From assembly GCA_021827495.1 (NCBI GenBank), contig JAKAVN010000014.1, positions 1-41,616 on the forward strand: DNA of 41,616 nt. The letters run 5' to 3'. The notes beneath the pieces are model-generated. The model made no database searches. It saw only the letters and a list, made by a program, of their open reading frames with translations, and was not told the DNA's origin. This DNA comes from Deltaproteobacteria bacterium (GTDB lineage: Bacteria; Desulfobacterota; Binatia; Binatales; Binataceae). A program made the translations under genes and the position numbers. Numbering within the stretch: position 1 is the stretch's first letter; every line of letters begins with the position of its first letter. Of the stretch, positions 3,188-40,538 are shown piece after piece.

Positions 3188-6100
3188 CTAGCGGTGGATC
3201 GCGGCGCGCGCGGGCGCCGGACCGGGCAATCCGTCGTAGACCAGCGCGCGGCCGTCGGAATGAAACCCCATCGCCGCCATCGCGCCGACCCGTGTCGAGC
3301 CGAGCGCGGCGGCGCCGTCGATCGTCTCGACCACGACTTTGCGCCTGAGCTCGATAAGGGCTCCGAGCGCGGCCGAGAACGCCTCATCGTCGAGCGCATC
3401 GATACTGATTAGCGTGCGCCCCGCAAGTCCCAGCATCACGCGTCCGGCCCGCAGGACGACAAAGTTGCCAGCCTCGCGCGCAACGCCGCATCCGGGCAGC
3501 ACTGCGCCGTACGGATTGGCCGGGTCGGCGGCGCTGAGCGCGACCGGGCGCGCGCGCTCAGCGCCGCGCACCGCCGCGAGCATCTCGAGTGCGGCGGGCA
3601 GCGCGTACTGCTCGCCCGAAAGCGCGCGAACGAAGTAGCCACGCCGGATCGCGCCGGCGTACTCCATCCTGCGCAGCGCGAATGAAACCTCGCGCCACGC
3701 CAGCGGCTCGCGCTCGAGCCCGAGCATCTCGCGCGCCACGATCCCATTGCGCTTGAGCAGCATCTCGGCGCGCTCACGCGCCCGGTCGCGCGCCGCGCCG
3801 TCGCCGGTGCCGGACTGCGGCGCCGCCACTGCGGCGGCGCCCGCGCCCAGCGCCGACCAGCGCCCGCTCACGCTCGAGCGCAGACGCGCGCGCAGCGCCG
3901 CGTCGTGGCGAGTGCGGCGATGGACGCCCGGCGCCATCGCGCGCACCACCTCGGGCGCGGCCCACAGCAGGCGCAGCGGCGCGAAGCTGTCGTTGGAGAC
4001 GCGGCCGGCGGCCGCGAGCCGCCATAGCGCGGCGAGCGCCGTCCGCTCCGCCAGCCCGGCGCGCTCGGCGAGCTGATCAAGGTACTGCGCGCCGCCCGCG
4101 GCCAGCGCGAGAAAGACGCTGTGCTCGTCGCGGTCGTCGAGTTCGGCGGCAGCCGCGTCCGCCGCTGCCGCATCGAAGTGCGCGCCGCCGGCGCGCCGGC
4201 GCCTCAAGAACGTGATTCGCGCCGGCACTTCGCCGCCGGCGTCTTCGCCGGGGACGGCGGCCCATACCACCTCGCCCCCGAGGCAGAGCAAATCGAGCCA
4301 TTCGGGGCGGTAGCCGACAATACGCGCCGGCAGGATCGCACGCTCCCACAGCTCGGGACTCAACGCGATGCCCGAGAGCTGTTCGAGCACGGCGGCGACG
4401 CCGGACTGGCCGGCGGCGATTCCCGCGCCGCCCACATGATTCCATCGCAGCCGAAAAGCGGCGTACTCGTGGTCGGCGCAGGGCTCGGTTTCGGAGCGCA
4501 GCCGGCTAAGCGTCCGGCGATGAATCTTCTCCAAGTTGTAGCGGTCGCACCATTGTTCGGCGCCGGCCGTGGCGTGCGCGCGGATGGCGCCGAGCGCCGG
4601 GCGGCGCGGCGTGAAATGGCCGCGGAAGACCAGCCCCTTCGCTTCGAGCGCGAGCAGATGCCGCTCGAGCGCAGCCGGCGCCATCCTTAGCCGCTCGCCG
4701 AGTTCCGCGGTCTCGAGCGGTCCCGACGTCGCCATCGCGCGGCGAACGATCTCGCGTTGCGCGTCGCCGGCTTCGGGTGCGCAGGCCTCGCGGGTCGCGG
4801 CCGCCGGCGGCGCCTCGGCATGGCGCTCGATGCGCGCTTCGGGATAGGCCGCGGCGAAAAGCGCGGCATCCTCGGCCGCGATCAGCAGCTCGGGCGCGCC
4901 GGGCGCCAGGTGCGCGCGCACCACGCGGCCTTCGCGCTCCAGCGCGGAGAGCATCGCATGCGCCTCACCGGCGACGCGCTCCTCCAGCGCGCCGGTGGCG
5001 AGCGCGCCGTGCGCGCGGATCAATTCATACAGCTCGTCGCGATCGCGCGCGCGGCGCGCCATCGCCCGGCCGCTGGCTTCGGCCGCGACGCTCTCGACCG
5101 CGTCCGCCGCGAGCATCGTGGACAGGTCCTCCGTTCGCAGCACCTCCTCGGCCATCGTGCGGTTGAGCGAGACCGTGCGGCTGCGGCGGTTGGCGCGCTC
5201 GCCGTCGTCGAGGAACGAGTAGTCCCAGGCGAGCAGGATGCGATGGGCAAAGACCGAGGGCGCCACGGCGTCGACCGTCACGACCCGCATCGCGCCCTGC
5301 TCGATCCCGCGCAGCAGCTCGACAATACGACTGATATCGGCCGACTCGGTGAGGCACTCGCGCATCGTCTCGGCGATGATGAAATGGTCCGGCAGTTCGA
5401 CCTCGGGCGGGCGATTCTCCAGGCAGGCCTCGCGCTGCGGGAAAATCGCGGCGGCGAGTTCCTGCGCGCGCAGCCGCTGGATCTAGGCCGGCACCTTGCG
5501 CCCCCGCGCCGAGCGCATCACCGCCAGCGCCCGCGTCGCGACGTGGCGCATGCGGACCTCGAACATCGGCGCGGCCAGCAGCGCCTGCTCGAGCACGCGG
5601 CGCACGCTGCGCGAGGAAAGCATCGCGATGAGCGAATCGAGCGGGAAACTGTGGCGCGCGTTGAGCGCGAGCAGCACCGCGTCGTCAATCGCCGAGGCCT
5701 GAATTTCGAAGTCGAACGACTGGCAAAGCCGTTTGCGCAGCGCCAGCCCCAGCCCGCGGTTGACGCGCATCCCGAACGGCGAGTGAATCACCACCTGGGT
5801 GCCGCCGAGGCCGTCGAAGAAGCGCTCGACCACCAGCGTGCGCTGGTTCGGAATCGCGCCGAGCGCGCCCTGGCCGCGGCGCACATAGGCGACGGCCTGA
5901 GTCGCCGCGCGCTCGTCCATCGCGCAGTCACCGCAAAGGAAGGCGGCAGCCGCGGCCACGCCGGCGCGCGTAATGCGCTCGAAGATTTCACCGCGCAGCT
6001 CCGAGACTTCCGACGACAGCGCGGGCGAGCGGCCCGCCGCCTCGGTCTGCCAAAACGGCAGCGACGGCGCCATCCCAGGCGCCGGCTCGACCAGGAAGCG

Positions 6101-7816
6101 GTTGCGCGAGATTCCGAGCACCCGCCACGGCATCGAGCCCAGCGCGAAGATGTCGCCGCGCGAGGACTCCTGGGCGAAGTCCTCTTCGACCTCGCCGATC
6201 TTGCGCCCCTGCGATTCGATCACGACATCGAGGTTGCCGCTTTCGGGAATCGTGCCGCCCGCAGTGATCGCGGCCAGGCGCGCGCCGCGTCTGGCGCGCA
6301 CGCGAGTGCCGATGCGGTCGTGGAAGATCTTCGGCGCCGCGCCCTGGATCCGCGCCGGCAGTTCGGCCGCCATCTGATCGAGCAGCTGCGCCAGCGCGCC
6401 GCGGTCGAGCTCGGCGAAGTTATACGCGCCGCGCAGAACGCGCAGCAGGTCGGCCTCGCCGATTTCCTCCTCCTCGGCGGCGATCGCGACGATTTGCTGG
6501 GCCGCGACGTCAAGGCATCCGGCCGGAATCTCGACCTCATCGAGCCGGCCCTGGCGGATCGCGCGCACCGCGGCGGCGCATTCGAGCAGATCGTCGAGCG
6601 TGAGCGCGAAGAGGCGCCCTTTGGGCGTCGCGCCGAGGCGATGGCCCGAGCGGCCGATACGCTGGATCGCGGCCGCGATGCTCTTGGGCGAGTCGATCTG
6701 GCAAACCAGCTCGACCGCGCCGACGTCGATCCCCAGTTCCAGCGACGCGGTCGCAACCAGCGCGCGCAGCTCGCCGCGCTTGAGGCGCTGCTCGGCCTCC
6801 AGCCGCTCGGCGCGCGCCAGACTCCCGTGATGCGCCATCACGGCGCCGGCGCCGAGGCGCTTTTGCAAGTTGAGCGCGATGCGCTCGGCCCAGCGCCGGC
6901 TCAGCGTGAAGACCAGCGTGGTGCGATGCTCCCTGACCAGCGCGGCGACCGCGTCGTACATCGCCTCCCAGTGCTGATGAGTCGCAAGCGGGCCGAGCTC
7001 GGGCCCCGGTGCGATAACCTGGAGATCCATCCGGCGCGCGGGATCGTCGGCGCGCACCACTTTCACCGGGCGCGGGCTGTGTACGCCGTCGGCGCCGATC
7101 TCAGCGCCGGCGAGAAACCCGGCCAGCCGCTCGATCGGATTGAGCGTCGCGGAAAGCCCGATTCGCGCCGGGCGCGGCGCGCCGGTTGCGCGCACCATCC
7201 GCTCCAGCCGCTCCAGCGTGAGCATCAGGTGCGCGCCGCGCTTGTTGGGCGCGAGCGCGTGCAGCTCATCGACCATCACGTAACGCACGGCGCTTAGGCT
7301 GTGACGGAAGCGCGGCGAGGTCAGCAGGATGAAGAGCGATTCAGGCGTGGTGACCAGGATATGGGGTGGCCGGCGCAGCATCGCCGAGCGCTCGCTGGCC
7401 GGCGTGTCGCCGGTGCGCAGCCCAGCACGTACTTCAAGTATAAGTTTAATTTCTTCGGAGCGGCCCGCGTCCCCGGCCAGGCGCCGCGCCGTCCGCCGAA
7501 TCCCGACCAGCGGCTCTTCGAGATTTACCCGAATGTCATTGGCGAGCGCCTTGAGCGGCGAGACGTAGAGCACCGAGACGCGGTCGCCGAGTTCCCCGCG
7601 CTCGGCGTCGCGGAAGAGCCGGTCGATGGCCCACATGAAGGCGGCGAGCGTCTTGCCGCTGCCGGTGGGCGCGCACAGGAGTACGTCATGGCCGGGGGGC
7701 GCATCGCATTGGGCGATTACCGGCCAGCCCCGGCTCTGGGCCGGCGCAGGCTCGCCGAAGCGCTCAACGAACCAAGCGCGGACGGCGGGATGGAAGGCGT
7801 CGAGCACGGAGGCCAT
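3188..7816 (-). CDS. lhr: Lhr-type ATP-dependent helicase, interrupted by one in-frame TAG (5483-5485)
   Basis: ORFs 5483-7816 (CAPTGSGKTLAAF, VDELHAL, IGRSGHR) and 3188-5365 (Lhr C-terminal region) are in the same frame; the sequence between reads ...RGRKVPA*IQRLRAQELAAAIFPQREACLENRPPEVELPDHFIIAETMRECL..., continuous Lhr-like sequence apart from the stop. Confidence 0.9.
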
Positions 7817-26045: not shown

Positions 26046-26283
26046 AGGTCGCAGACCATCGCGATGCCCTGGGCTGTTTTCTGGCTCAGGCGGTGGAGCG
26101 GCCGGGGTTGAAAATCACCAGCGCCCGCGCACCGTACCCTTGCGCACACTTGGCACTTAAATGTAGATAAACGACCAGGTTCGTGACAGCAGCCGAGCCG
26201 GGGCATCAAAGAGTAGCGCGCCGAGTTAGACGCGCTGCGAGCCAACGACCCGGCGGTTGCACCACAGAATTCGGAGGAGATTA

Positions 26284-26868
26284 ATGCCGCACATCAGTTC
26301 TATTCCTTTAGAAGAGGTGACGCCGGAACTGCGCAAGATAATGCGCGCGTATGACAGCTCCATCGGAGCGTCGGATTTCGTGCGAATCTTCGCCCACTCG
26401 CCCGAGGTCTCCAATGCGTTCTTCCGATTCTACCTTCCCGCCATGGTGGCCACGCGCGGCCGGATCGATATGCGGATCACCGAACTTGCGCGGCTGAAAG
26501 TCGCCGAAAGAAGCAGTGCCAAGCCTTGAATGGGCGTACGGGTTGCCTTGGCAAGGCAACAGGGAGTGACCGAGGAGCTAATCTCCGAAGTTAAGAACTA
26601 TCGCGAAAGCAAGATTCTTGCGCCTCACGAGAAGGCTGCAATTCACTTCGCCGACGTGCTCGCGGGTGACCATTTGTCGGGTGGCAAGGAACTGTTCGAC
26701 GAGCTGCGCGAACATTTCAGCGAGTCGGAAATCATTGATCTCGGGGTCCGGATGATGGCCTACGTCGGTTACACGCGCTTCCTCGCAACGATGGAGGTCG
26801 AGACTTTCGGCGGAACCTGTCCGCTGTCGGGTCAGCCGGCGGAGGTTCCAGGTTCGGCCGCCTCGTAA
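26284..26868 (+). CDS. Carboxymuconolactone decarboxylase/AhpD-like protein with in-frame UGA (candidate selenoprotein or UGA-disrupted gene)
   Basis: ORFs 26257-26529 (usable ATG 26284) and 26530-26868 are in the same frame: ...RIDMRITELARLKVAERSSAKP(UGA)MGVRVALARQQGVTEELISEVKNY.... The CMD/AhpD pattern ELxRLxVAExxxCxxCxxVRxALAR aligns without gaps, with UGA at the second Cys. Confidence 0.7.
26527..26560 (+). promoter_or_regulatory. Candidate bacterial SECIS-like element (UGA plus downstream hairpin)
   Basis: TGA 26527-26529, then GTTGCCTT(26542-26549)-GGC-AAGGCAAC(26553-26560): perfect 8-bp stem, apical loop GGC beginning with G, 20 nt between UGA and loop. Confidence 0.5.
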
Positions 26869-38664: not shown

Positions 38665-39483
38665 TTAATGCCGATCGACCGCGCGGTAGCGCGCCGCCAC
38701 CACGTCCCAATCGATATGCTCAACGAAGCGCGCGATGTACTTCGCGCGATCAGGATAGTTGAGCAGGTAGGCGTGCGAGGCCACGTCGCAGACCACCAGC
38801 GGATTGGCGCCCACCCAGCCCCCGGCGTCGCCCTCGCCTGCCGGCAGGTTGTGCCATCGATCGTCGTAGGGATCGTACACCAGGATCGCCCAGGTCTGCG
38901 CGATCCGCGCGCACTCGATGAAGTCCGCGCGCCAGCTCTCGATTGAGCCCATGTGCTCGTTGAGGTTGTCGAGCACGTAGCGCGGCGGCCTCGTCGGTTT
39001 CACCGCCAGGTTGCGGAAATAAAATTCGTGCAGCAGCACGGAGTTCGCCGCTTCGATCTGCTGGCGGCGGATCAGGCCGTAATCGTTGCCCTGGGCGGCA
39101 TCGCGCGCCATCGTGGCGAGCACCCGTTCGGCCACCACCAGGCGCTGGAAGTCGCGGCGATAGGCCTCGCAGTTCTGCGCCAGTTGGTCGTGCGAGAGAA
39201 AGCCGAGAATCTCCGGATGCGGCAGCGCCATCGGCTTGCGCGGCTGAAATCCCGCCTCGCCCTTGAGCAGACCCTCGTTGCTGAGGCCGCTTTCCGGCGG
39301 CGCAGCCGGCAGTGCGGCCGCGGCGCGGGAAATTCCGTTCGCCGCGGCGGCCGCGCCGAGCGTGATTGCCGCGCCCAGAAGCTCACGCCGGCCGACGCCG
39401 CGTCCGGTCGCCCAACCGGCTTCGCCGCCAGGTGCGTAGCGGGCTTCGCCCTTCTGTAGCTGACGGGCTTCGCCCTTTTTCAC
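38665..39483 (-). CDS. Tat-exported Fe/Mn superoxide dismutase-like protein
   Basis: GTG start (39483) overlaps argC stop (GTGA). Tat-like GRRELLGAAITLGAAAA; LLHEFYFRNLAV, WAILVYDPYDDRW, DVASHAYLLNYPDRAKYIARFVEHIDWDVVAARY. Confidence 0.8.
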   Translation of the reverse strand: MKKGEARQLQKGEARYAPGGEAGWATGRGVGRRELLGAAITLGAAAAANGISRAAAALPAAPPESGLSNEGLLKGEAGFQPRKPMALPHPEILGFLSHDQLAQNCEAYRRDFQRLVVAERVLATMARDAAQGNDYGLIRRQQIEAANSVLLHEFYFRNLAVKPTRPPRYVLDNLNEHMGSIESWRADFIECARIAQTWAILVYDPYDDRWHNLPAGEGDAGGWVGANPLVVCDVASHAYLLNYPDRAKYIARFVEHIDWDVVAARYRAVDRH

Positions 39484-40538
39484 GGCACGGCGGCCGCGCC
39501 CAGCAGTCCGGCCGCCTCGTCGTGTCCCAGCATCAGGTTGAGATCCTGGATCGCCTGGCCGGCCGCGCCCTTGCCGAGATTGTCGATCGCGGTCAGCACG
39601 CACAGCGTCTGCGAGCGGCGCTCGAGCACGAAGCCGAGTTCACAAAAGTTGGTGGCGCGGACGTTTTTCAACTCGGGCAACTCACCCGGCTTGAGCAGGC
39701 GCACGAAGCGCGACTTGGCAAAGGCCGCCTCGAAGGCCGCGCGCACGTCTTCCTCGGTGGTGCCGGCACGCGGGCGCATGAAGATGGAGCTTAGAATGCC
39801 GCGGGTGACGGGCAACAGGTGCGGCACGAACATCACCGCGACCTCGCGTCCGAGGGTGAAGCCGATCTCCTGCTCCATCTCGGGCACGTGGCGATGGTTG
39901 CCGACTTTGTAGGCGCGGAAGTTTTCGTTGACCTCGGCGAAGAGCTGGTCGATTTGCGCCGCGCGGCGCGCCCCGGTGGTCCCCGACTTGGCGTCGATCA
40001 CGATCGACGCCGGGTCGACCAGGTCGCGCCGGATGAGCGGCAGCACGCCGAGCAGCGCGCCCGTCGGATAGCATCCCGGCACCGCCACCAGCCGCGCCTC
40101 GCGCAATTCATGGCGATGGAACTCGGCCAAGCCGTAAACCGCTTCCTTCAGCAGCGCGGGCGCCGGATGCTCGGCGCCGTAGGTCTGCCGGTACTGGGCG
40201 GGATCCTTGAGCCGGAAATCGGCCGAAAGATCGACGATCTTAAGCCCGGCCGCAGCCAGCTCGGCGAGCAGCGCCGCACCGACCCGCTCGGGCAAACACG
40301 ACATCACGACTTCGGCGCGCCCGGCGACCAGATCGGCGCGCAGTTCCTCGAACGGCGGCAGATCGATCCCGGCCAGATGGCGATAGACTTCGGCCACCTC
40401 GCGCCCGGCGTAATGCTCGGAGGTGAGCACGCTCAGCTCGACGAATGGGTGCCCGGCCAGGATGCGCACCGCCTCGATACCCGAATAGCCGGACGCTCCC
40501 AGCACCGCTACCTTGATCTTGCTGCGCGACGACACCAT
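39480..40538 (-). CDS. argC: N-acetyl-gamma-glutamyl-phosphate reductase
   Basis: KIKVAVLGASGYSGIEAVRILAGHP; VAVPGCYPTGALLGVLPLIR; DAKSGTTGARRAAQ; HRHVPEMEQEIG. Upstream ATG at 40550 also possible. Confidence 0.95.
   Translation of the reverse strand: MVSSRSKIKVAVLGASGYSGIEAVRILAGHPFVELSVLTSEHYAGREVAEVYRHLAGIDLPPFEELRADLVAGRAEVVMSCLPERVGAALLAELAAAGLKIVDLSADFRLKDPAQYRQTYGAEHPAPALLKEAVYGLAEFHRHELREARLVAVPGCYPTGALLGVLPLIRRDLVDPASIVIDAKSGTTGARRAAQIDQLFAEVNENFRAYKVGNHRHVPEMEQEIGFTLGREVAVMFVPHLLPVTRGILSSIFMRPRAGTTEEDVRAAFEAAFAKSRFVRLLKPGELPELKNVRATNFCELGFVLERRSQTLCVLTAIDNLGKGAAGQAIQDLNLMLGHDEAAGLLGAAAVP

Follow-up and report, generated by a model that had tools for sequence, protein, structure and literature searches.

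Gene structure and reading frame

The window analysed here, a stretch of 41,616 nucleotides from the bacterial contig JAKAVN010000014.1, contains on its forward strand an AhpD/CMD-like gene (26284..26868), assigned by Pfam CMD and full-length homologue alignments. The frame is open from the ATG at 26284 to the TAA at 26866-26868, and its sole interruption is the TGA at 26527-26529 (codon 82). Read through this predicted selenocysteine codon (U82), the joined protein has 194 residues. A Shine-Dalgarno-like GGAGGAG (26273..26279, forward strand) lies 4 nt upstream of the ATG, and the ATG at 26530, just after the TGA, has no such sequence before it. A first-pass annotation had described two ORFs in one frame, separated by this TGA and jointly encoding 194 residues, and both its coordinates and its protein were confirmed. 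In isolation the TGA junction is unremarkable, since long open frames are common in GC-rich DNA: the window contains 47 in-frame TGA junctions flanked on each side by some 70 open codons or more.

Two other genes of the window are noteworthy for their reading frames. An Lhr-type helicase gene on the reverse strand (3188-7816) has one in-frame TAG, at 5483-5485, within the DEAD/H-associated domain (...KVPA*IQRLRAQEL...); its two halves share one frame and together carry the Lhr domains. Pyrrolysine was considered for this TAG and rejected, as no pylS C-terminal match was found in the genome, and the codon is therefore likely a nonsense mutation or a consensus error. The SOD-like gene at 38665-39603 (reverse strand) has an N-terminal extension, and Pfam recognises only its SOD C-terminal domain; a suspected frame break there was dropped because the frame reads through.

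Family membership and predicted fold

The joined protein matches the Pfam CMD family (PF02627) with 26.6 bits, over the cut-off of 23, and its predicted structure (pLDDT 82) retrieves in Foldseek the AhpD-like and peroxidase-related structures 6ohj, 7xw1, 2prr and 6k40, which together place it in the CMD/AhpD fold. Against TIGR01926 it scores 36.8 bits, under the cut-off of 81.8, and against its best NCBIfam match, NF053654 (GroundWater_YciW), 48 bits, under the cut-off of 310; each of these two models is matched by 28 of 28 aligned members.

Knowledge of AhpD-like CxxU selenoproteins (COG2128) goes back to the Sargasso Sea study (PMC1088965, PMC2398784), and reviews cover them (PMC9312934, PMC13188914), so that the first-pass statement that such proteins had been described is borne out (PMC1088965, PMC2398784, PMC13188914). 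The window protein shares fold and length with these proteins (COG2128 YciW-like, TIGR01926; 'AhpD-like 1' in ocean metagenomes), as well as the position of Sec at the second residue of CxxC and a SECIS element right after the UGA, but differs from them in falling below the TIGR01926 cut-off and in having Ala as the first Cys. As assembled, the window reads AKPU where CxxU is found in all 32 relatives with UGA. The score far under the cut-off of NF053654, a 'YciW-related (seleno)protein' model, points to a sister group rather than to that equivalog. Cys-containing AhpD and peroxidase-related CMD proteins (7xw1, 2prr, 6k40 and the debrominase Bmp8, 6ohi/6ohj) share the predicted fold and profile similarity, but have Cys in place of Sec and 17-29% structural sequence identity. 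The gene is a predicted member of the known AhpD-like (COG2128/YciW, TIGR01926-type) CxxU selenoprotein group, and none of the curated models searched is dedicated to its subgroup.

Homologues and the UGA column

Searches of genome collections and of related whole genomes yielded 33 relatives that were aligned with the window gene, with protein identities of 31-56% to the window protein. The window's TGA column is occupied by TGA in 32 of the 33 and by TGC in the remaining one (L005). The in-frame UGA therefore falls on a column held by Sec or Cys in the homologues, as is expected of members of bacterial selenoprotein families, and the first-pass assignment of the UGA to the second Cys of CxxC agrees with the 32 CxxU forms and the single CxxC form. 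No further internal stop was found in the aligned coding stretches of the relatives, where second TGAs are the 3'-end stops. A wider sample of the phylum gave no additional homologue at E <= 1e-30.

The Cys form (L005:3001-3561, JACQWY010000035.1) comes from a groundwater gammaproteobacterial MAG and carries CRLC. It is nested among Sec forms, within the Sec clade of the family tree (weak support), and probably represents a Sec-to-Cys replacement in which the hairpin was lost. One related genus (G045, G052, G059-G063) has three UGA paralogues per genome, located in three separate clades of the tree (loci L010, L011, L017-L020, L037-L041 and L049-L053). The CMD paralogues of the window's own genome (L002-L004) were considered as Cys/Sec pairs and set aside: these proteins fall in another CMD group and lack Cys at the columns in question. 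The gene neighbourhood is not conserved, the flanks differing among the three genomes compared (G001, G024 and G037), and gives no functional hint.

Conservation and covariation of the SECIS hairpin

A putative SECIS hairpin, GTTGCCTT-GGC-AAGGCAAC, occupies 26542..26560 on the forward strand, with stem arms at 26542-26549 and 26553-26560 and the GGC loop at 26550-26552. A 12-nt spacer follows the TGA, the 8-bp stem is perfect and the loop starts 20 nt after the UGA, exactly as had been claimed from the sequence. The bacterial SECIS model calls for a loop of 3-9 nt, a stem of 4-16 bp, an MFE <= -7.5 and a G as the first or second loop nucleotide, at a distance of 16-37 nt from the UGA (PMC13188914). 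The distance and loop limits that the first-pass annotation gave match this model, and the window hairpin satisfies it throughout (3-nt GGC loop, 8 bp, 20 nt, -11.5 to -12.9 kcal/mol). The stem codons were also confirmed to be disfavoured, GTT, TTG, GCA and AGG making up 9%, 8%, 5% and 6% of the codons of their amino acids in seven long window ORFs. Rfam returned no match inside 26450-26650.

Judged from the single sequence, the hairpin is not significant: synonymous recoding of the same peptide gave a stem of 8 bp or more in 16% of trials, and the energy of the hairpin is weaker than the mean of this null. The evidence comes from the homologues, whose 48 nt 3' of the UGA give a gap-free alignment. 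At the eight pairs of the window stem, 91.8% of alignment cells show standard pairing, and seven of the eight were changed on both sides among relatives. Such doubly changed cells number 52, compared with 17.2 +/- 3.1 in shuffles and no more than 6 in slid registers, and the stem scores 0.664 for covariation, where shuffles score 0.205. All 32 UGA homologues have the hairpin in the identical register with an invariant GGC loop, so that the conservation looked for across related genomes was found. In the Cys homologue only three of the eight positions pair in the window's register and the GGC loop is gone, a loss that would be expected if the hairpin serves Sec insertion rather than protein or DNA composition. 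We regard the conservation and covariation across homologues as decisive, taking the UGA/hairpin pattern far beyond chance.

Selenocysteine machinery of the host genome

The host genome (264 contigs, about 92% complete) contains profile matches to selA (552 bits, cut-off 268) and selB (381 bits, cut-off 242), a tRNA-Sec with anticodon TCA (68.6 bits) and selD (382 bits), all above curated cut-offs. None of the four lies on the window's contig, which is why no selA, selB or selC had been visible in the window. The presence of selA, selB, selC and selD in the genome is what a selenoprotein-encoding organism would need, and the search proposed for these genes recovered them all. The selD gene (L054:1501-2430, contig C51 of the host genome, G000) has its own in-frame TGA, which falls on the active-site position near the N-terminus (AAGUAGK), and the host SelD is predicted to be a selenoprotein itself. 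Many SelD proteins are selenoproteins with an in-frame TGA near the start.

Because the homologues share the UGA column and the covarying hairpin, the Cys homologue is hairpin-less, and the genome has selA, selB, tRNA-Sec and selD, the gene almost certainly encodes one predicted selenoprotein that reads the in-frame UGA as Sec, and the first-pass interpretation is supported.

Apparent loss of the first cysteine by two putative indels

Three columns upstream of U82, the window reads Ala (AKPU), in contrast to Cys in each of the 33 relatives; at column -5 the relatives have Asn (33/33) and the window Ser, and at column -1 Leu or Thr in the relatives is replaced by Pro. From column -15 to -6 the window agrees with the relatives. 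The alignment locates a stretch shifted by one nucleotide at 26506..26526 (forward strand), which reads RSSAKP against [RKIL]N[DEQG]Cxx in the relatives. The frame one nucleotide earlier reads KKQCQA, its Cys falling in the first-Cys column, and the out-of-frame TGC at 26517..26519 (forward strand) corresponds to the first-Cys codon of all relatives. The Ala in this column and the Cys in the neighbouring frame had both been noted before and were confirmed by the alignment. For the 24 nt that precede the TGA, allowing gaps raised the score of DNA alignments between the window and its relatives by a mean of 8.5; the same gain among relatives reached a pairwise maximum of 4.0, and the highest mean for one relative was 2.2.

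The best account of these differences is a pair of putative compensating 1-nt indels within 26506-26526, a loss before the TGC and a gain after it. Because the second indel would fall after the TGC, the reading frame is back in register before the UGA. The first-pass annotation had offered such indels as a rival to the selenoprotein reading. The indels themselves stand, given the alignment gain, but the rivalry does not, because they alter codons 76-81 only, upstream of the UGA, and relatives without indels share the UGA and the hairpin.

Natural variant, assembly error or decay

An ordinary stop, at which the UGA terminates and leaves two ORFs or a CxxC pseudogene beside a chance hairpin, would fit the unremarkable single-sequence statistics of the hairpin and the TGA junction, but is very improbable in view of a UGA and covarying hairpin common to 32 homologues and of the full Sec machinery in the genome. 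As to the indels, we tentatively favour, at slightly less than even odds, a functional AxxU selenoenzyme in which the resolving Cys was removed while the UGA and SECIS are still selected, leaving a one-selenol catalyst. Sequencing error is not the default reading, because about twenty other Pfam-recognisable genes of the window are full-length without a frame break. Compensated pairs of indels are what selection leaves, which speaks in favour of a real change.

An ordinary CxxU selenoprotein gene in which both indels are errors of the contig is possible, though we would not bet on it. The change falls on an invariant motif, the adjacent frame has a Cys exactly in the first-Cys column, and the nonsense TAG in the otherwise intact lhr marks at least one other disruptive base in the same contig. 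The lhr defect, however, is a substitution and not an indel, random errors would be more likely to break the frame than to preserve it, and beside some twenty intact genes it would be a striking coincidence for two indels of opposite sign to fall within about 20 nt. Decay of a real gene, through truly inactivating indels so recent that the UGA and hairpin persist, is unlikely. It would explain why a Cys that is invariant in the catalytic motif is gone, and a stop also interrupts the window's lhr gene. In the family tree no terminal branch is longer than that of the window gene (0.82; the next two measure 0.42 and 0.35), and the window has changed at 15 of the 63 positions that its nearest relatives keep invariant; the long branch and the lost positions suggest that constraint on the window gene may be relaxed. 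Against decay stand the restored frame downstream of the first indel, an ORF that is open elsewhere, a perfect stem, and a conservation that is far higher at codon positions 1 and 2 than at position 3 (0.64-0.78 vs 0.34-0.50).

Proposed mechanism and significance

We estimate a probability of roughly 0.9 that the gene encodes an AhpD-like selenoenzyme with UGA82 decoded through SelB and the hairpin, where the data show the UGA conservation, the hairpin covariation, the genes of the machinery and the indels, and Sec insertion, enzyme activity and the resolving partner are what we infer. SelB and Sec-tRNA would bind the hairpin 12 nt past the UGA and decode the UGA as Sec; of these steps, the predicted insertion through SelB at the hairpin has good support. 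The product would be an all-helical CMD/AhpD-fold protein of 194 residues whose Sec occupies the second position of the ancestral CxxC/CxxU motif. In AhpD-type enzymes it is the second motif Cys that attacks and the first that resolves. In members of this family, a peroxide or some other electrophile would be attacked by the Sec selenolate, and the product would be resolved by the Cys located three residues before the Sec. In the window gene, the loss and gain of one nucleotide within about 20 nt would have converted the motif from CxxU to AxxU. Should the sequence be correct, the nucleophile would be kept and the internal resolver gone, and an external thiol or another Cys, for example C180, would have to take its place. 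C180 belongs to a CP motif near the C-terminus that the nearest relatives conserve; in the model it is carried by the C-terminal tail (174-194), which is unstructured (pLDDT below 50), and this has no bearing on a resolver role.

A standard annotation pipeline would call two truncated CMD fragments here instead of one selenoprotein gene. In this lineage, up to three paralogues are found in relatives (G045, G052 and others). The group scores far under the named NCBIfam (seleno)protein model, so that its members will probably escape notice. If AxxU is real, the gene would serve as a natural experiment on whether AhpD-like selenoenzymes can do without a resolving cysteine.
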